Shown here: positions 3,627-22,079 of the stretch, piece after piece
Layout: each line of letters begins with the position of its first letter
How positions within the stretch are numbered: position 1 is the first letter of the stretch
The notes under the pieces: model-generated
The model's input: the letters and a program-made list of their open reading frames with translations, nothing else
Database searches by the model: none
What the model was told of the DNA's origin: nothing
Program-made: the position numbers and the translations under genes
IMG/VR virus record: IMGVR_UViG_3300045003_000138
Coordinates: 1 to 22,250 of that record
Strand: one strand, 5' to 3'
DNA length: 22,250 bases
Source: a virus

Positions 3627-3980
3627 CTAAATGTCATGGTGGTCGAGCATATCCCGGATAAGTGCCAGGATAACCAGGGACTCCTTCTCCAGCCCGGCTA
3701 CCTCAGCCTCGGTCAAGGTTGGCCGGACATAGGAGATGGTCTTGAGGGAGGGAGCCAGGGATCGGGAGACCAGGACGTTCCAACGGTCTCCATCGAACAG
3801 GGAGCCAATCTCCTCAGATTGGAAGTCATAGGCATTGCGGTTAATCTGGACCCGGACCACCCGGCCGTCCGCGGCGAAGATCATCTCATCGTGCCAGGTC
3901 TGGTCAGACAGCCAGGTCCGGTGGTCGAGAACCTTAACGGTAGTTTTGGTCCGGGTCTTTTCGGTCGAGCAGCTCTTCAT
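3627..3980 (-). CDS. Hypothetical protein, 117 aa
   Basis: Start at the ATG at 3980 (MKSCSTEKTRTKTTVKVLDHRTWL...), 9 nt after GGAG in GGAGATGAATCCGATG; the earlier in-frame ATG is part of that leader. Predicted beta-rich N-terminus with DGRVVRVQINRNAYDFQSEEIGSL, then a C-terminal helix (EAEVAGLEKESLVILALIRDMLDHH). The first codons and leader are nearly identical to those of the gene starting at 5122, but the proteins diverge after MKS. Function unknown. Confidence 0.8.
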   Translation of the reverse strand: MKSCSTEKTRTKTTVKVLDHRTWLSDQTWHDEMIFAADGRVVRVQINRNAYDFQSEEIGSLFDGDRWNVLVSRSLAPSLKTISYVRPTLTEAEVAGLEKESLVILALIRDMLDHHDI

Positions 3981-4031
3981 CGGATTCATCTCCAAAAAAG
4001 GTTAGCAGTAGATTTGAACCGCGAACCGGCC
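3971..4031 (-). repeat. 61-bp gene-junction repeat, copy 1
   Basis: This block matches 5113-5173 with about three differences. In the other copy the same bases encode the last residues of the 75-aa protein (FAVQIYC-stop), then its 3' spacer, the GGAGATGAATCCGATG leader and the first codons of the next gene. Here the FAVQIYC-coding tail is an orphan lying just after the TAG of the DUF932-like gene. This suggests a duplicated or recombined gene junction. Confidence 0.85.
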
Positions 4032-4909: not shown

Positions 4910-5122
4910 CTAGGCCCAGTTGGGTAGATCGTAGTACCCCTCTTCCCGGGCGTAGGCGTTCCAGCCGGAATCAATGAGCCGGCCCTGCCGGTCCTCGGAA
5001 CTCTCCCGGGAAGGGGCCGGCACCCCCTCCGCACAGGACTTGCAGCAGCCCTTATGGGAAGAGGCATACTTCCGGTTCGTGGTCCGTCCACAGGAGTAGC
5101 ATTTGGTCAGGTAGCTCTTCAT
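4910..5122 (-). CDS. Small zinc-ribbon protein, 70 aa
   Basis: Start ATG at 5122 (MKSYLTKCYSCGRTTNRKYAS...), after the GGAGATGAATCCG leader. Residues 8-30 form CYSC-x15-CCKSC, a compact four-cysteine zinc-ribbon pattern. A polar linker and an aromatic/acidic tail (AREEGYYDLPNWA) follow. Small proteins like this in phages usually bind nucleic acid or a host protein; the actual role cannot be told. It shares a transcript with the 75-aa gene upstream, 21 nt away. Confidence 0.8.
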   Translation of the reverse strand: MKSYLTKCYSCGRTTNRKYASSHKGCCKSCAEGVPAPSRESSEDRQGRLIDSGWNAYAREEGYYDLPNWA

Positions 5123-5173
5123 CGGATTCATCTCCAAAAGAAGTTAGCAGTAGATTTGCACCGCGAACCGGCC
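5113..5173 (-). repeat. 61-bp gene-junction repeat, copy 2 (in genic context)
   Basis: The partner of 3971-4031. Here it spans the 3' end of the 75-aa gene, the 21-nt spacer and the first codons of the zinc-ribbon gene. This is the natural-looking context, so the other copy may be the derived one. Confidence 0.85.
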
Positions 5174-5371: not shown

Positions 5372-5419
5372 CGGATTCATCTCCCTTTTCAAGTTCCCCG
5401 TTTCTCATCCTCTCTATCT

Positions 5420-5448
5420 AGAATACGGTCGTTCCACGAAAAAGTAAA
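5420..5448 (-). promoter_or_regulatory. Promoter-like site P3 (TTTACT-17-TATTCT)
   Basis: Minus strand TTTACT (5443-5448), 17-nt spacer, TATTCT (5420-5425) preceded by CCG. It lies 49 nt upstream of the ATG at 5371. The bases ahead of the -35 (AATTTTTCGGAAAAGGTTA) closely match those ahead of site P6 at 18037, so the conserved block extends into an AT-rich upstream element. Good match to a housekeeping sigma-70-type promoter. Confidence 0.75.
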
Positions 5449-5531
5449 TAACCTTTTCCGAAAAATTCCCAAATAATCCTCCGATCCCCCGGCCGGAAGA
5501 CCCTACCTTAAATTTCTATTTATGGATAGAA

Positions 5532-5647
5532 CCCCTGGAAACCTATCCAGAATCGTCCAGGATCGACCCGGGGGCCTTCCTACCCCTATCCCCCTACTCG
5601 ACCTGTCCGGAAGCCTTCCAGGGGCCATTTTAGAGGGTTTCCAGGGG
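5532..5647 (-). ncRNA. Structured intergenic element, copy 1 (possible RNA element)
   Basis: The ends form a perfect 12-bp inverted repeat, CCCCTGGAAACC at 5532-5543 with GGTTTCCAGGGG at 5636-5647. Inside is a near-palindrome GGAAGCCTTCC (5609-5619). Copy 2 at 12334-12452 has the same GGAAACC/GGTTTCC pair at almost the same distance (99 versus 98 nt), the same internal GGAAnnnTTCC hairpin and shared stretches such as GTAGGGGG. This copy begins 5 nt after the TAG of the DnaB-like gene and upstream of P3, so it would be the 3' end of the replication transcript. A non-canonical terminator, processed 3' RNA or regulatory RNA are all possible. I know no named family that matches. The rest of 5372-5651 holds only P3. 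Confidence 0.5.
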
Positions 5648-5651
5648 AGCC

Positions 5652-7145
5652 CTACTCCTGGTCCCCCTCTCCTACCCTCCGGGGCAGCCCCCCCCGGGGC
5701 TCATAGGCTGAGACCACGGCCGGGTTGCCCACGTCGAAGCAGTGGGCCAGGTGGCAACAGCGGCCGGGCTCGAAGTACCGATCCCGCTGCTGAATCCAGT
5801 TCAAACGGATCAACCTCCTCCCCTTCTCCTCCCCCGAGGTATTGATCCCCACCTCCCCGGTAATATAGGCGTGTTTCCGCTTATCGTTCGAGAAGTTCCC
5901 CCGGTGGAGGGTCCACTGGGAGTAACTAGCCGCATCAGCCTGGGTCGCCGTCACCAGGAGGCAGTGCAGCTCCGTGTTCAGGGCCCGGAGCTGGGAAAAG
6001 TTCTCGTCGATCACCTGCCTGGGGTCCATCCGGGAGTTCGGGGGAGCCAGGATGTCGGCATAGTCAAGGATCAGGACGTCCGGGACCCAGCCGTCCTCCA
6101 TCTCCCAGGCTTTCAGGGTCGAGCGGATACCGGCCACCCCCAGGATCTTCTGGGGAGAGCAGTGCAGGCCGAAGTAGGAGTCCCGGGAGCGGACGTCCCA
6201 CTTCTGGATCTCCTGGCACGTCTCCCAGGCGATCTCCTCGGTCAGGGGACCGTCAAACACCAGGTCCTCCCCGTACTCCACGGTCGCCGGCTCCCGGGAG
6301 AACTTAGGGAGCGTCACCGCCTTGGGCCATGGGACCCGGCAGGGCCAGGTCCCGGTGGGGGAGTAGATCGGGTGCCGGGAGGCCCGGACGTAGAGCCGGA
6401 GCTTCAGCTGGTTCTTACTGTTGTCCCCCAGCTCGAAGAAGGCCACCCTCCTCCGCTGGCACATGGCCCGGAAGGCCAGGTCCACCAGGAACCAGGTCTT
6501 CCCGGCCTTCTCGGGGGCCAGGAAGAGTAGGAACTCGTCCCGCCGGAGCATCCCGGTAAAGAAGTCTCCCAGGGCTCCGGGGTACTCGAAGAGGGGCTCG
6601 AAGCGGTCCTCCCGGAAGGGCTCGACCACCTCGAAGCGGTCCGTGTAGGGCTTGATCCGGGCCGACGGTCCTAGCCGGAAGGGGACCAGGGCCGTGGACA
6701 GAGACTCTACCGCGGCCTCCGTCCGGTTCATGGCTAGGTGGCCGGAGGCAGCAGCGAGGGCCCGGTTCACCTTGACCCTCTGGAGGTGCCGGCCGGCGAT
6801 GTCCATCACGTGGTCGGTATTGTCCACCTGGAAGTGCTTGATCTCGATGTTCTGGCAGATCTCGGACAGGAGCCGGTCGTAGGCGTCCTGGGTAGCCTGG
6901 TCAGGCTGGCTCTCCTCGATCCAGACGGCGAAGAGGTTGTTGATGTCCTCCCCTGGAGCCCGGTTATGCTTCCGGTAGTAGGCCGCGCACCAGGAGCCGA
7001 TGACGTTCGCGTCACTGGCCTCAAAGGGACCGGGGCCGTACTCCGGCCAGACGGCTGCTAGGGGGCCGCAGACCCCGCTATTGTTGATCATGCCGGCCAG
7101 GATTAGCCGTTCCTGGTTCCCCTCCTTGTGCTCGTGGACCTTCAC
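5652..7145 (-). CDS. DnaB-like replicative helicase / RecA-fold ATPase, 497 aa
   Basis: GTG start at 7145, overlapping the TGA of the upstream gene by GTGA, with GGAGG 7 nt ahead. Residues 1-150 are helical, as in the DnaB N-terminal domain, with EDINNLFAVWIEES. The ATPase domain has a Walker A-like APEKAGKT (210-217), RVAFFELGDNSKNQLKLRLY (233-252) as in DnaB motif 1a, Walker B DVLILDYADIL (356-366) and LLVTATQAD (396-404) as the motif 3 region. This layout fits a phage replicative helicase that unwinds the fork. The Walker A is unusual (PEKAGKT rather than GxPGxGKT), as in some phage helicases and RepA-type ATPases. Operon partner of the replication-initiation-like gene just upstream. Confidence 0.85.
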   Translation of the reverse strand: MKVHEHKEGNQERLILAGMINNSGVCGPLAAVWPEYGPGPFEASDANVIGSWCAAYYRKHNRAPGEDINNLFAVWIEESQPDQATQDAYDRLLSEICQNIEIKHFQVDNTDHVMDIAGRHLQRVKVNRALAAASGHLAMNRTEAAVESLSTALVPFRLGPSARIKPYTDRFEVVEPFREDRFEPLFEYPGALGDFFTGMLRRDEFLLFLAPEKAGKTWFLVDLAFRAMCQRRRVAFFELGDNSKNQLKLRLYVRASRHPIYSPTGTWPCRVPWPKAVTLPKFSREPATVEYGEDLVFDGPLTEEIAWETCQEIQKWDVRSRDSYFGLHCSPQKILGVAGIRSTLKAWEMEDGWVPDVLILDYADILAPPNSRMDPRQVIDENFSQLRALNTELHCLLVTATQADAASYSQWTLHRGNFSNDKRKHAYITGEVGINTSGEEKGRRLIRLNWIQQRDRYFEPGRCCHLAHCFDVGNPAVVSAYEPRGGLPRRVGEGDQE

Positions 7146-8266
7146 GCGTAGCCCTCCCACTGCTCGTCCCCGGAGGGGAGGTCGTTGTCCGGAGGGGCCA
7201 TGAGGTCCCGGGACGGACAGCCCTTCTCCTTGCCGTAGGACTCGGAGAAGCGGCTTTTAGGACGAGACTTTTCCAAACGACGACGTTCTAGGGCTTGTAG
7301 GACCCGGGCTTTTTCCTTCCGGAGGGTTCTGGGGGTAAGTAACTGGGGCTGGTACGGATGTTTGATGTGTTTGAGGTGGTCCCGTACCAGATCCTCCATC
7401 AACTTTTCGGCCTCCTGCTGGGCCTTTCCGGAGGAAACGAAATCGGTGACTATCCCCAGGAGTTCCCTACTCCAGCCGGAAAGGTTTGGGGGCTTGGACT
7501 GATAGTACCTACCGGAGTTCTTGATTTCTTCGTAGAAGAGTTTGGCCAGCTGCTTCGCTCTTCCGGCCAAACCTTCCTCTTTCCCGTCCCCATTAGAACG
7601 ACCGTTCCCAGAGAAAAATCCGTTCCGTTCCTTACCCCCGGCCGGTAGGCCGGGGGGATCTTTCTTATTATTTCTTTCCCTATCATGTATAGGATCGGGG
7701 GGTTTCCCCCCCGGATAACCGGGGGGATTTCCCGGTGTTTCAATTACCGGGAAATCCCCCCCATTGGGTAATCGGGGGGATTTCCCCCCCTTTGAATTCC
7801 CGGAATCTTCCCCTCCTCCTCCGTCTACCCTATCAATAGCCTGCTCGATCATCTGGATATTTACCCGGACGTACCGTCTCGGGGGACAGCCGAACCTTTT
7901 CATCTCAATGAAAACTTTTTCCGGGAGGTAGACGGTTTGCTTCCCCTTCTTCTTTACCTTCCCCTGTAATTCATCTAGGATTCTAGACTGGGCATCCGGG
8001 GAGTAGCAGAGGACCTTCTCAGCCTTTTCCTCACTGAATTGGACCCAGCCCTGCTCTCGGAGGGCCTTCCTCCTGGAGTTTTTGGGGACGATCCCCCAGA
8101 GGTTCAAGATGTGCTGGATCAAGATAGCCGCATCGTGGGACATGATTTTGAGGTAGTCCCTGGAGAACGGGAACCAGTTTCCGGAATCCTTGTTTCTCCG
8201 GAGGTAGCGAACGAAGTCCTCCTCAGTAGGAACCGGATTTGTTGAGATGTCATTGCTTTCGGACAC
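7142..8266 (-). CDS. Replication-initiation-like protein with N-terminal winged helix, 374 aa
   Basis: GTG start at 8266, with GGAG 6 nt upstream. Residues 30-130 look like a winged-helix domain: DYLKIMSHDAAILIQHILNL, then GWVQFSEEKAEKVLCYSPDAQSRILDELQGKG-type segments and RRYVRVNIQMIEQAI. A low-complexity linker rich in Gly, Pro and Asn (about 150-225) follows, with repeated GGxPP/GGD units. The C-terminal half is basic and helical (LAKLFYEEIKNSGRYYQSK, RDHLKHIKHPYQPQLLTPRTL). This is the arrangement of phage replication-initiation or DnaD-like helicase-loader proteins, and the DnaB-like gene follows by a 4-nt overlap. Function is inferred from layout and neighbour. Base composition is noticeably more AT-rich than in flanking genes. 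Confidence 0.8.
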   Translation of the reverse strand: MSESNDISTNPVPTEEDFVRYLRRNKDSGNWFPFSRDYLKIMSHDAAILIQHILNLWGIVPKNSRRKALREQGWVQFSEEKAEKVLCYSPDAQSRILDELQGKVKKKGKQTVYLPEKVFIEMKRFGCPPRRYVRVNIQMIEQAIDRVDGGGGEDSGNSKGGKSPRLPNGGDFPVIETPGNPPGYPGGKPPDPIHDRERNNKKDPPGLPAGGKERNGFFSGNGRSNGDGKEEGLAGRAKQLAKLFYEEIKNSGRYYQSKPPNLSGWSRELLGIVTDFVSSGKAQQEAEKLMEDLVRDHLKHIKHPYQPQLLTPRTLRKEKARVLQALERRRLEKSRPKSRFSESYGKEKGCPSRDLMAPPDNDLPSGDEQWEGYA

Positions 8267-8442: not shown

Positions 8443-8475
8443 GGAGGGGGAAGGACTAACGAACCTTCCCCCTCC
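8443..8475. promoter_or_regulatory. Strong 12-bp stem-loop
   Basis: GGAGGGGGAAGG (8443-8454) is followed after 9 nt by its exact reverse complement (8464-8475). It has no trailing T-run on either strand, so it is not a typical intrinsic terminator. It lies downstream of the HNH gene and could end or protect its transcript, or belong to an origin. Confidence 0.6.
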
Positions 8476-12333: not shown

Positions 12334-12452
12334 GGTTTCCCGTGGAAACCAGGTAAAAATCGTTTCTACGGGGTTTTGGGTAGTCCATACTACCTACCCC
12401 CTACCCGGGACCCCGGAACGCTTCCTGGGCCGTTTTTGAAGGGTTTCCGGGG
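12334..12452 (-). ncRNA. Structured intergenic element, copy 2 (possible RNA element)
   Basis: The partner of 5532-5647. GGAAACC (12344-12350) can pair with GGTTTCC (12442-12448), and an alternative GGTTTCC (12334-12340) forms a local 7-bp hairpin with the same GGAAACC across CGT. So two mutually exclusive folds exist at this end. Inside are GGAACGCTTCC (12415-12425) and CCCCTACCC-type runs shared with copy 1. It follows the end of the long operon (last stop TAG at 12506) and precedes P5. The remaining stretch 12453-12505 holds nothing recognised, although its frame continues open from the upstream gene if that TAG is ignored. Confidence 0.5.
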
Positions 12453-12505: not shown

Positions 12506-12817
12506 CTAGATTACCTCCTCCCAGGCGTCCCCGTAGGTACTGGAGATGACGAAGACCTTAACCCCCTCCCCCTTCCACCTCTGGTAAAAGGACCGGACCT
12601 CCGGGGAGTCGGGTTCGAGCCGGTCAATTCGCAGTCCCCATGAGGTAGGCGGGATGGAGCCGAATTCCCCCGGGGGAAAAGAGGCCGGCGGTAGCCACTC
12701 CAGGTTCTTCAGGGCCGGGCTCCGCCCGACGGTCTGCTCCAGGTCTTCTCGCAACTCTCTCCAGGTCTCGTCCTTCATCCGGTCGGTTAGCAGGAGCAGG
12801 TAGCCGGTGTTGGCCAC
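12506..12817 (-). CDS. Hypothetical protein, 103 aa
   Basis: The GTG at 12817 (MANTGYLLLLTDRMKDETWREL...) is chosen over two earlier in-frame starts because GGAGG lies 7 nt upstream of it. The earlier ATG (12835) overlaps the upstream stop and encodes MKGGRT, which is the ribosome-binding site itself. The protein looks like a small alpha/beta fold: LLLLTDR strand, LREDLEQTVG helix, and a C-terminal SPEVRSFYQRWKGEGVKVFVISST. Unknown function. It ends with TAG; the frame continues open for 34 codons of gene-like composition before the next TAG. Confidence 0.75.
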   Translation of the reverse strand: MANTGYLLLLTDRMKDETWRELREDLEQTVGRSPALKNLEWLPPASFPPGEFGSIPPTSWGLRIDRLEPDSPEVRSFYQRWKGEGVKVFVISSTYGDAWEEVI

Positions 12818-12834
12818 GGTGCGTCCTCCTTTCA

Positions 12835-13164
12835 TCAATCCTCAAATTCCTCGCTTCTAGTTGGTCTCTCCACGAAGACGTAGGGCCGCTCCATGAGCCA
12901 CTTCTGGTACTCCTCAGAAGCGTTCCCGACCCCTAGACAATCTTGGAGGCAGTCGGCGTCCAGGAAGAAGCTGCTGTTCCCCCTCCCCTCCCCCTGGTCC
13001 CAGTCGGAGACGCAGCGGCCCCCGTCAGGAGTGTAGAGGCTCCTCTTGGAGTTATTCCGCCGGTCCCTCCTCCACAGGTAGCCGGCCTCCAGCAGGGTCT
13101 TCTTGACCTCCTCCCACTCGGCCGGGGAAATCTCTACTAGGCCAGTATTCGGTAGGAGCCTCAC
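12835..13164 (-). CDS. Hypothetical protein, 109 aa
   Basis: The GTG at 13164 overlaps the TGA of the methyltransferase gene (GTGA), giving MRLLPNTGLVEISPAEWEEVKK. A longer frame begins at a GTG at 13194 but has no ribosome-binding site. The sequence has a helix (AEWEEVKKTLLEAGYLWR) and a central glycine-rich, cysteine-containing segment (DADCLQDCLG). No family recognised. Translationally coupled to both neighbours. Confidence 0.78.
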   Translation of the reverse strand: MRLLPNTGLVEISPAEWEEVKKTLLEAGYLWRRDRRNNSKRSLYTPDGGRCVSDWDQGEGRGNSSFFLDADCLQDCLGVGNASEEYQKWLMERPYVFVERPTRSEEFED

Positions 13165-13883
13165 GTCTCTACCCCCTTCCTTCTCAAAACCCACAGGTTA
13201 TCGTGGATGCCGAACCAGTGGGGGAGGGGCAGGCTTTCCACCTCCTCCCACTCCCGGTCCAGGAGGTCGAAGAAGGAGTCGTCGGCGCAGCAGCCGTTCC
13301 ACTCCCCGACGTAGACCAGCCGGTCTCCCCGGTAGGCCCCCAGGGTCTCCGCGGCCCAGGGCTCGTTGTAGGACGGCCAGCACAGGAGCAGGGTCCGGTC
13401 GGGGTGGAGCCGGACGGCCCTCCGGCCGGAGAGTTTGACTACCGAATGCCAGGGGTGGAAGAACCCGTACCTCTTCTGCACTCCCCCGGCCGGGATGGGC
13501 TTGGGGTCAGTGGCCAGGACGTCGGCCCCCTCCCGGGCCAGCTCGTGGGCCCAGTAGCCGCTGCCGGCCCCCACCTCCAATAAGGGGGAGAACCTGGCCA
13601 CGAGCTTCAGGGCCTCCCGGGAGGGGATGGTGAAGCCGAACTTCCGGACGAAGCCCCAGCGGGTGTAGAGCTTCCGGTGGGCCTCCTCCTCGGACCCGAC
13701 TTCCCCGGCCTCTAGCTTGTTTAGGAGGACCCGGACGTCGTAGTATTCCGGCCTCCCGAAGAGGTTCGTCAGGGGGATGCCCTGCTCTCGGATGGTCCTC
13801 TCATACAGGCTCAGGCCAGGCTCATGGGGGTCGGCCAGGACCTCCTTCCTGCCCCCGAAGAGTGCGTCGGTGAGACTACTCAC
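13161..13883 (-). CDS. SAM-dependent methyltransferase, 240 aa
   Basis: GTG at 13883, overlapping the upstream TGA by GTGA. SAM-binding motif I is LLEVGAGSGYWAHELA (101-116), and the acidic motif II end is DVLATD (121-126). A motif IV-like segment, LLLCWPSYNEPWA (165-177), is followed by DRLVYVGEWNGCCADDSFF. The WPSYNEPWA and LVYVGEW pattern, plus a final HDNLWVLRR, match a small class I methyltransferase family known from bacteria and eukaryotes whose substrate is not settled (from memory). In a phage it could modify nucleic acid or a small molecule. There is no target-recognition domain of the kind seen in DNA cytosine methyltransferases. Confidence 0.88.
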   Translation of the reverse strand: MSSLTDALFGGRKEVLADPHEPGLSLYERTIREQGIPLTNLFGRPEYYDVRVLLNKLEAGEVGSEEEAHRKLYTRWGFVRKFGFTIPSREALKLVARFSPLLEVGAGSGYWAHELAREGADVLATDPKPIPAGGVQKRYGFFHPWHSVVKLSGRRAVRLHPDRTLLLCWPSYNEPWAAETLGAYRGDRLVYVGEWNGCCADDSFFDLLDREWEEVESLPLPHWFGIHDNLWVLRRKGVET

Positions 13884-14404
13884 GTTTTCTTCCTCTTCTG
13901 ACAGCCGGCGTATTTCCCGGGGAGCCCGTGCTTCCTCCGGTACTTGAAGATCCTCTCCCCGACGTTGACCGTGGTCAGGCCATACTCCTCGGCCAGCTCC
14001 CTCAGCAGCTTCCCGGCCATGAACTCCCGGTACAGGAGGGCTGTCAGCTCCCGGTCCTGGTATTTCCTGGCCTCAATGAGCCCGTCCCGGAGGAACTGAA
14101 TCCGCACGGTCTGGGGGCTGCAGCCCAGCTCCTTCGCGATCTCTTTCATGGTCATTCGCTTCTCCTGGAACAGCTTCCGGAGGGACTCGGGGATCAGATA
14201 CCTCCTCCGGCTGCCGACCCGGAGGGAGGAGGAGCACCCCTCCGGCCCCCGGAGCCGATAGCCGTTCTGCCCGGCGATCTCCCGGACGATCTGTGAGATC
14301 CGCTGCCTCCGGAGGCCGAAGTCCCGGGCCAGGATGCCGGCCGACTCGCCCCGCTGGTACCTCTGGAAGATCTCCTCGTTCCGCTCCTGCTGTCTCTCGG
14401 CCAC
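13880..14404 (-). CDS. Triple helix-turn-helix DNA-binding protein, 174 aa
   Basis: GTG at 14404 after an AGGGGGTG ribosome-binding region. Three HTH-like segments follow each other: about 8-42 (EEIFQRYQRGESAGILARDF, then GLRRQRISQIVREI), about 70-112 (MTMKEIAKELGCSPQTVRIQFL) and about 120-162 (LLRELAEEYGLTTVNVGERIF). The C-terminus is basic (KYAGCQKRKKT). Tandem HTH repeats without a catalytic domain suggest a sequence-specific regulator or a sigma-region-4-like factor. It sits between primase and methyltransferase in the replication operon, overlapping the latter by 4 nt. Confidence 0.83.
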   Translation of the reverse strand: MAERQQERNEEIFQRYQRGESAGILARDFGLRRQRISQIVREIAGQNGYRLRGPEGCSSSLRVGSRRRYLIPESLRKLFQEKRMTMKEIAKELGCSPQTVRIQFLRDGLIEARKYQDRELTALLYREFMAGKLLRELAEEYGLTTVNVGERIFKYRRKHGLPGKYAGCQKRKKT

Positions 14405-17142: not shown

Positions 17143-17775
17143 CTACAGGTCTGAGAGCAGGTCACGGATCTCGCTGAAGCTCTCCAGGATGCGCTCCACG
17201 GCCCAGCCTAGGTCGATCAAATAGCTGACCAGGAGGGAGCGGTGGGCGTTCGGCTTGGGCTCCTCCCCGGCCCCCGGGGCCAGCTCGTCAGGGTGGTCCA
17301 GGGCCAGCCGGATCACGGTGGCCGCGTCGGGGGAGACCTCGAACAGGATGCGGTCCAGGTCGAAGGCCGGGGGCTCCCGGTACAGCTGCCAGCGGTTCCC
17401 GGTGTAGGACAGGGTGTGGTTAGGCTCCCAGTCGGGGGGCAGGTCCGGGCTCTTCCCCTGGGTCGTGACGGCCCGGACGACCCCGGCCCGCTCCCCCCAC
17501 CTCCGGGCCGTGGGCTTGAGGAACCTCCTCCGGGCCTCCTCCTGGAGTTCCCGCCAGACCACGATCCCCACCCAGGCGGCGTAGTCCCCGGAGTTGGGGT
17601 CGTAGGACAGGTGGGCCCGGACCCAGGCGGCGTGGGCGTCGCTCCGGAGGTCGTCCTCCGGCCTCCCGGACCTGCGGGCGAAGTTCCGGACGCACTTCTC
17701 GATCCGGTCTCGGGCCAGGGCGTAACCCTCCTCGGGCGAGGGTTTCTCTCGTTGCTGGAGAGCGGCGGTGCTCAT
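17143..17775 (-). CDS. Sigma-70-like region 2 protein, 210 aa
   Basis: ATG at 17775, overlapping the upstream stop by ATGA. Residues 25-80 (CVRNFARRSGRPEDDLRSDA, then HAAWVRAHLSYDPNSGDYAAWVGIVVWRELQEEARRR) follow the region 2 pattern of sigma factors. There, DDLxxxAxxAxxxAxxxYDP...GxxxxW precedes the helix that melts the promoter. The C-terminal half (LDRILFEVSPDAATVIRLAL, LIDLGWAVERILESFSEIRDLL) may act like region 4, in the position of an HTH. It could be a phage sigma factor that redirects host RNA polymerase; remote similarity only. It lies directly behind P6 and its small first gene. Confidence 0.7.
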   Translation of the reverse strand: MSTAALQQREKPSPEEGYALARDRIEKCVRNFARRSGRPEDDLRSDAHAAWVRAHLSYDPNSGDYAAWVGIVVWRELQEEARRRFLKPTARRWGERAGVVRAVTTQGKSPDLPPDWEPNHTLSYTGNRWQLYREPPAFDLDRILFEVSPDAATVIRLALDHPDELAPGAGEEPKPNAHRSLLVSYLIDLGWAVERILESFSEIRDLLSDL

Positions 17776-17969: not shown

Positions 17970-18013
17970 GGGATATCATCTCCCGAAGAAAAGGTTTTCG
18001 TTCTTCCCTATCC

Positions 18014-18042
18014 GTTATACGGATGCCCGCCCGAAAAGTAAA
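18014..18042 (-). promoter_or_regulatory. Promoter-like site P6 (TTTACT-17-TATAAC)
   Basis: Minus strand TTTACT (18037-18042), 17-nt spacer, TATAAC (18014-18019) preceded by CCG. The upstream block GGAAATTTTCCGGAAAAGGT strongly matches P3. It starts the long sigma/helicase/primase operon and is the best promoter match in the window. Confidence 0.75.
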
Positions 18043-18067
18043 CTACCTTTTCCGGAAAATTTCCCCC

Positions 18068-18475
18068 CTACCCGGCCCGGCTCTTCCGGACCTCCTTCCA
18101 ACGGTCCCCCAGCTCCCTGTGGAGGATGGCATAGACCCGCTGCCGTGACAGGTGGAACCTGCGGGCCAGCTCCAGGACGGGGAGCCTCTGCCCCCACGCT
18201 TTGAGGAGCCTCCGGTCCCGGTCCCGGTAGGGCCGGTGCATCCGGCCGGCGTTGTCCCGGAGCAGGCAGCCGCACGACCGGACCTTCCCGGAGAGTAGGT
18301 CCCCGGCCGCAACGACCTTGCTCCCCCCGCATTTGCAGGAGCACTCCCATAGCCGGCCCCCGTTATTTGGCCCGGCATTGGGGAGCAGCCGGACGGCCCG
18401 GAGCCGGCCGAAGGGGGGGTGGTGGGTGAGGTCGGCCGGGGGCCGTCCCACGGGTCGGACGGTAGGTAGTTCCAT
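18068..18475 (-). CDS. CxC-CG/CGC-type zinc and HTH DNA-binding protein, 135 aa
   Basis: ATG at 18475 (MELPTVRPVGRPPADL...). Residues 43-72 read WECSCKCGGSKVVAAGDLLS followed by GKVRSCGCL. This is the W-C-x-C-x-CG ... SCGC-L pattern of small phage and host DNA-binding proteins, often linked to AP2 or HNH nucleases; no nuclease follows here. A C-terminal HTH is present in LPVLELARRFHLSRQRVYAI (98-117). The ATG has only a weak ribosome-binding site (AGAG). A much better leader (GGAGACGACTCCC) lies 35 nt upstream in front of a GTG (18510) in another frame, which is unexplained. It ends in TAG just before P6. Confidence 0.78.
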   Translation of the reverse strand: MELPTVRPVGRPPADLTHHPPFGRLRAVRLLPNAGPNNGGRLWECSCKCGGSKVVAAGDLLSGKVRSCGCLLRDNAGRMHRPYRDRDRRLLKAWGQRLPVLELARRFHLSRQRVYAILHRELGDRWKEVRKSRAG

Positions 18476-21804: not shown

Positions 21805-21898
21805 TGCCCCGGTCCCCCTCTCTCCCTAGGGGGGGACCTAGTTGCTCTTGCCCCGGTCCCCCTCTCTCCCTAGGGGGGGACCTAGTTGCTCTTGCCCC
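21805..21898 (-). repeat. 44-bp tandem repeat with internal hairpin (2 copies plus partial)
   Basis: Two exact 44-bp copies (21805-21848, 21849-21892), then the start of a third (21893-21898). Each contains GGTCCCCC...GGGGGACC, which forms a strong stem (arms 21811-21818 with 21830-21837, and the equivalent 44 nt on). The right-hand copy includes the TAG of the 65-aa gene, so the last codons of that gene and its 3' hairpin have been duplicated. 44 is not a multiple of three, so this is an RNA or DNA element rather than a protein repeat. Confidence 0.92.
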
Positions 21899-22079
21899 GA
21901 CCCTTCCGCTCCACCTTCTCCGGCTCCGGAGCCGGCAGGGGGACAAAGGGCTCCGGCCCGTCGTCCACGGCCAGCAGGACCTTGAGGCGGCTGTTGGCCA
22001 GGGAGAACAGGTCGGCCGACTCGTTGACGTTGGTGGTCAGGCGGGCCAGGGCGCTGAAGAAAGCCTTGAGTCCGAACAT
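21882..22079 (-). CDS. Hypothetical protein, 65 aa
   Basis: Start at MFGLKAFFSALARL (ATG 22079), 9 nt after GGAG in GGAGACGATTCCC; earlier in-frame starts precede this leader. Residues 1-14 are hydrophobic and basic, and the middle is helical (TTNVNESADLFSLANSRLKVLL), followed by a proline-rich linker (PFVPLPAPEPE) and a basic end (KVERKGRGKSN). Unknown function. Its last codons belong to the tandem repeat at 21805-21898. Confidence 0.78.
   Translation of the reverse strand: MFGLKAFFSALARLTTNVNESADLFSLANSRLKVLLAVDDGPEPFVPLPAPEPEKVERKGRGKSN

Follow-up and report, generated by a model that had tools for sequence, protein, structure and literature searches.

A diverged pair of operon-junction elements in a phage genome and their possible role as a folded operon-end RNA

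Two intergenic segments of a virus genome, here called e1 and e2 (Table 1), raise two questions: are they copies of one element and, if so, does that element act as RNA or as DNA? They lie in the 22,250-base virus record IMGVR_UViG_3300045003_000138, the whole of which is referred to as the window. The likely genes of the window are all on the minus strand and include helicases, a primase, an RNA ligase and an HNH endonuclease; no tRNA or tmRNA was found in it. Two other products are possible phage sigma-like proteins, one encoded at 17143-17775 with a weak match to Sigma70 region 2 (E 0.016) and an HTH protein at 13880-14404 whose many HTH-model matches include Sigma70 region 4. A long minus-strand open frame at 2600-2890 (EFKIIVLETANLEELKKG...) has no obvious ATG, GTG or TTG near its 5' end. 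The preliminary description of this DNA placed both segments at operon ends, and this position was borne out: e1 starts 5 nt past the stop of the DnaB-like helicase gene and e2 starts 54 nt past the stop of the 12506-12838 gene.

Table 1. Coordinates of the features discussed, in window positions unless stated otherwise.
Feature	Position	Strand	Remark
DnaB-like replicative helicase gene	5652..7160	-	phrog_19, E 8.5e-17; precedes e1
Small gene, putative product without assigned function	12506..12838	-	precedes e2
Element e1	5532..5647	-	directly after DnaB-like helicase gene
Element e2	12334..12452	-	after last gene of upstream block
Conserved core of e1, 40 nt	5607..5646	-	31/40 identical with e2
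Conserved core of e2, 40 nt	12413..12452	-	31/40 identical with e1
P1 5' arm of e1, CCCCTGGAAACC	5636..5647	-	perfect 12-bp pairing with 5532-5543
P1 3' arm of e1, GGTTTCCAGGGG	5532..5543	-	pairs with 5636-5647
P1 5' arm of e2, GGAAACC	12442..12448	-	7 bp conserved
P1 3' arm of e2, GGTTTCC	12344..12350	-	local hairpin competes
GGAAGNNTTCC palindrome of e1	5609..5619		P2 tip
GGAAGNNTTCC palindrome of e2	12415..12425		P2 tip
P4 hairpin of e1, CGA triloop	5546..5562	-	4/6 pairs changed on both sides versus e2
P4 hairpin of e2, CGA triloop	12353..12369	-	counterpart of e1 P4
Promoter-like TTTACT-17-TATTCT	5420..5448	-	downstream of e1
Five related junction cassettes of relative L021	3700-3793, 4172-4300, 8490-8581, 12235-12328, 12872-12966		positions in the L021 record

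The two elements are a real, diverged pair of junction elements. Their ungapped 40-nt core has 31 identities, against a maximum of 28 in 1000 dinucleotide-shuffled pairs, and is the top-scoring pair among all intergenic regions of the window, with a close runner-up in the promoter pair 5393-5651/17970-18067 (30 of 40). When the full e1 and e2 regions were aligned permissively with gaps, the score was 132, only just above the shuffle maximum of 127.5. All of the sequence features said to be shared are present, on the minus strand, and the distance between the closing sequences GGAAACC and GGTTTCC was reproduced as 99 nt in e1 and 98 nt in e2. Measured from GGAAACC in e1 and e2, respectively, the palindrome lies at +23 and +23, GTAGGGGG at +45 and +44 and ACGATT at +86 and +85; no spacing among the five conserved blocks varies by more than one base. 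By manual count on the alignment, the intervening sequence (columns ~61 to 93, about the middle third) is at chance identity. The closing repeat of e1 is a perfect 12 bp, as found in 10 of 2000 shuffles, while e2 retains 7 bp and has a competing 8-bp hairpin, both in agreement with the preliminary description. A conserved protein frame was tested as the cause and does not account for the pair: the core mismatches are distributed 2/3/4 over codon positions 1/2/3, and each minus-strand frame of e2 carries stops inside the element.

Duplication of gene junctions elsewhere in the phage genome would explain the existence of such a pair. A 72-nt junction occurs at 3960-4031 and again at 5102-5173 with 90% identity, spanning a gene end, the intergenic sequence and the next gene start with a common GGAGATGAATCCGATGAA start region, and 71% of 63 nt are identical between the minus-strand promoter regions 5408-5470 and 18002-18064. 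The whole e1/e2 junction is probably one old duplication, because aligning the full regions with gaps also puts the downstream sequences TTTACTTTT and CTAGATAG in the same order in both. Structured junctions of other sequence were also noted. A 44-nt unit, itself a G+C-rich hairpin, is perfectly repeated in tandem 2.2 times between two genes at 21805-21899, and a strong 12-bp hairpin (GGAGGGGGAAGG/CCTTCCCCCTCC) with no T-run follows the HNH endonuclease gene at 8443-8475, another operon-end structure whose sequence is unlike e1 and e2.

Both elements had been described as lying just upstream of the next promoter. This holds for e1, where the downstream TTTACT-17-TATTCT is convincing, but not for e2, where TTTACTTTT and CTAGATAG are spaced too closely for a convincing promoter. 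The e1 promoter-like sequence recurs at 18042 (TTTACT-17-TATAAC) and at 2598 (TTAATT-17-TATTCT); the minus-strand region 2557-2598 is the third site of this recurrent sequence (TTTACT/TTAATT-17-TATTCT/TATAAC). An origin of replication was considered and rejected, the skew profile having no clean switch at e1 or e2.

The capacity of the pair to fold as RNA was assessed with RNAalifold, which gave P1, P2, a small middle helix and P4. In the three-helix consensus P1+P2+P4, all 19 pairs are standard in both copies, a sharp optimum relative to slid controls, and of 500 column-shuffled alignments, 494 gave a less stable consensus fold. The antisense consensus does equally well (1/500), and the sense-strand folding z-score is -1.44 for each copy, neither of which is notable. 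The optimal fold of e2 by itself is ~5 kcal/mol better than its consensus fold, and P1 has a probability of ~0.01 in e2. Covarying pairs, the check originally proposed, were found in one helix, P4, from two sequences only. This hairpin reads UCC-U-GGA-CGA-UUC-U-GGA in e1 and GUA-G-AAA-CGA-UUU-U-UAC in e2, so that four of its six pairs are changed on both sides and one on one side, with the CGA triloop unchanged. P1 and P2 do not vary between the copies, and the outer P1 pairs are broken in e2 and uncompensated. Four double changes are reached in 1.5% of column-shuffled alignments, and in 0.2% with six pairs, giving a P of ~0.002-0.015 for a test that is post hoc and based on two sequences only; when letters were shuffled across the three helices, a stricter test, 27 of 500 shuffles attained the observed value. 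Sense RNA is slightly favoured because the G-U pairs of P4, as read from the alignment (e1 columns 93-99; e2 columns 91-101), form on the sense strand only. Taken together, the folding results lend modest support to an RNA reading.

We tentatively take a folded operon-end RNA module to be the best explanation of the locus as a whole. The two elements would be copies, now diverged, of a single operon-junction module; all genes of this phage are on the minus strand, and the transcript of the upstream operon would end in a folded RNA of ~115 nt formed by that module. The closing helix P1 (GGAAACC/GGUUUCC) would enclose the palindromic hairpin P2 (GGAAGNNUUCC), a variable hairpin starting at GGGGG and then P4 with its CGA triloop. 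We infer that the elements are transcribed, that they fold in this way in vivo and that the folded domain may set or protect the 3' end of the message upstream of it, through factor-dependent termination or RNase processing. This role at the 3' end would separate that message from the next operon. Spacing kept to one base across a middle of unconserved sequence argues for the module, and a stop-to-element distance that is not fixed (5 versus 54 nt) argues against it. The more specific claim, that this is an undescribed phage RNA of ~115 nt, a P1-closed multi-hairpin acting as a U-tract-independent operon-end signal for termination or processing at two junctions of one genome, is rather doubtful. 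If the element does form 3' ends without a U-run, it would provide a testable case of how back-to-back operons on the same strand are separated in G+C-rich phages; the two copies, e1 and e2, make a clearly defined target with a putative function.

Searches of sequence collections bear on the novelty of the element. No Rfam family (release 15) reaches its gathering cut-off in the window and the matches at e1 and e2 are all sub-threshold (best E 0.88), confirming that the pair belongs to no family named there. No third copy was found in IMG/VR, GTDB genomes or phage and plasmid records, and the function of the element remains a lead for that reason. Further copies in related genomes had been proposed as a check; their absence is weak evidence, and is a limit and not a refutation because near relatives may be absent from these collections. 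The matches of a covariance model built on the two copies were limited to e1 and e2 themselves, their shadows on the antisense strand and weak ones considered spurious. One match (L028), a terminator-like hairpin in which P1 is largely broken, scored 21.5 bits; chance matches in other sequence scored up to 18 bits, and the antisense strand of the window 21.8. Four DNA-pattern matches (L007-L010) were rejected, none sharing genes with the window; L007 and L010 are the same sequence and L008 is an ordinary intrinsic terminator. Two GTDB matches (L030, L031) are about the number estimated by chance and fall in unrelated taxa, and at least three of the arm-pair matches L032-L035 lie within open coding frames. 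As a candidate new RNA family, the element amounts to two copies and one compensated helix, with no homologue found.

The SNF2-helicase and DnaB searches returned distant relatives (21-43% identity), none of which carries the element; 16 loci of distant relatives contained no copy, and a helicase-alignment search of genome contigs found no relative. In several relatives, as read from the sequence, a promoter-like -10 follows the DnaB helicase stop without the element. In the relative L021, a promoter-and-leader cassette with a palindrome-like CTGCCTAATATTATAGGC recurs at several junctions, and the motif, with up to three mismatches, is found in three of five related cassettes and once elsewhere in the record. 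Phage-specific repeated junction cassettes may be common in this group, because L021 repeats a cassette of its own; the repeated sequences themselves are not common to the different phages seen.

The same features can be read as DNA. A phage or host regulator could bind the inverted CCCNGGAAACC sites and the GGAANNNTTCC palindrome and so control the promoter of the next operon; inverted sites ~103 bp apart, nearly ten helical turns, would make DNA looping possible. The site centres lie 103 and 102 bp apart, and the only three exact copies of CCCNGGAAACC in the window are all inside e1 or e2. In both orientations CCCNGGAA occurs six times in the two regions (shuffles: mean 0.55, maximum 5), an enrichment that is not independent of the RNA reading because it partly restates the inverted repeats. 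The window has three exact copies of GGAANNNTTCC, each of them intergenic and one adjoining the promoter-like site at 18042, and the arms conserve letters and not just pairing. The window also encodes DNA-binding candidates (HTH proteins, among them those at 13880-14404 and 18068-18475, plus a product with weak VapB antitoxin similarity), and the cassette repeated in L021 is a promoter cassette bearing a palindrome. An operator array leaves the compensated P4 hairpin unexplained, however, and the distance from element to promoter differs between the copies, e2 having no clear promoter. We regard such an array as possible but on the unlikely side, with the RNA reading slightly ahead of it; if true, it would point to a new regulator of a replication operon.

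It is improbable that the pair is a functionless relic, an intergenic segment duplicated long ago whose copies are drifting apart. The other duplicated junctions (3960-4031/5102-5173 and 5408-5470/18002-18064) and the chance identity of the middle third are what such a history would leave, but drift would not keep near-intact blocks at one-base spacing while the middle was randomized, nor would it compensate four pairs. A MITE-like mobile element inserted twice would account for the 115 bp of e1 and its perfect 12-bp terminal inverted repeats. The outer repeat of e2 is broken, though, no target-site duplication is visible at either element and there are just two diverged copies, with none elsewhere in the collections searched, which makes this origin very improbable.

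Among known systems, an intrinsic terminator is a short G+C-rich hairpin with a U-run immediately after it. Like such terminators, e1 and e2 carry G+C-rich pairing past the last gene of a block, but their closing stem spans ~90 nt, which a terminator hairpin does not. No U-tract directly follows the closing stem of e1, which gave no match in a terminator scan, and e2 gave one weak match, a hairpin (TGGTTTCC-ACG-GGAAACCA followed by TTACTTTC) with a weak U-tract, in a scan whose total of 24 terminator-like hairpins is near the 18.1 expected by chance (s.d. 4.9). The view that neither is a standard terminator is upheld. In Cluster K mycobacteriophages, the Extended Start-Associated Sequences (ESAS) consist of imperfect inverted repeats of 17 bp, with spacers mostly 4-13 bp long, that directly precede a start sequence of 13 bp; they occur in many copies upstream of a subset of genes, their repeat consensus varies by subcluster and their function is unproven (PMC3203893). 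Like ESAS, e1 and e2 are intergenic elements of unproven function that recur within a phage genome, are built from imperfect inverted repeats and lie upstream of some of its genes. They differ in having two copies, arms of 7-12 bp that are ~90 nt apart and a start-codon distance that is not fixed, and a search of the phage collection matched the element DNA to no Cluster K record. Cluster A mycobacteriophages carry stoperators, single 13-bp asymmetric protein-binding sites in short intergenic spaces that number more than 20 per genome, are oriented with transcription and are proposed to halt it (PMC9283540). Stoperators resemble the operator-array reading of e1 and e2 as putative protein-binding sites in short intergenic spaces, whereas the sites in e1 and e2 are inverted and clustered in two places. 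Neither ESAS nor stoperators have the anatomy of e1 and e2, but these two, each a repeated intergenic element of a single phage group, are the nearest described elements.
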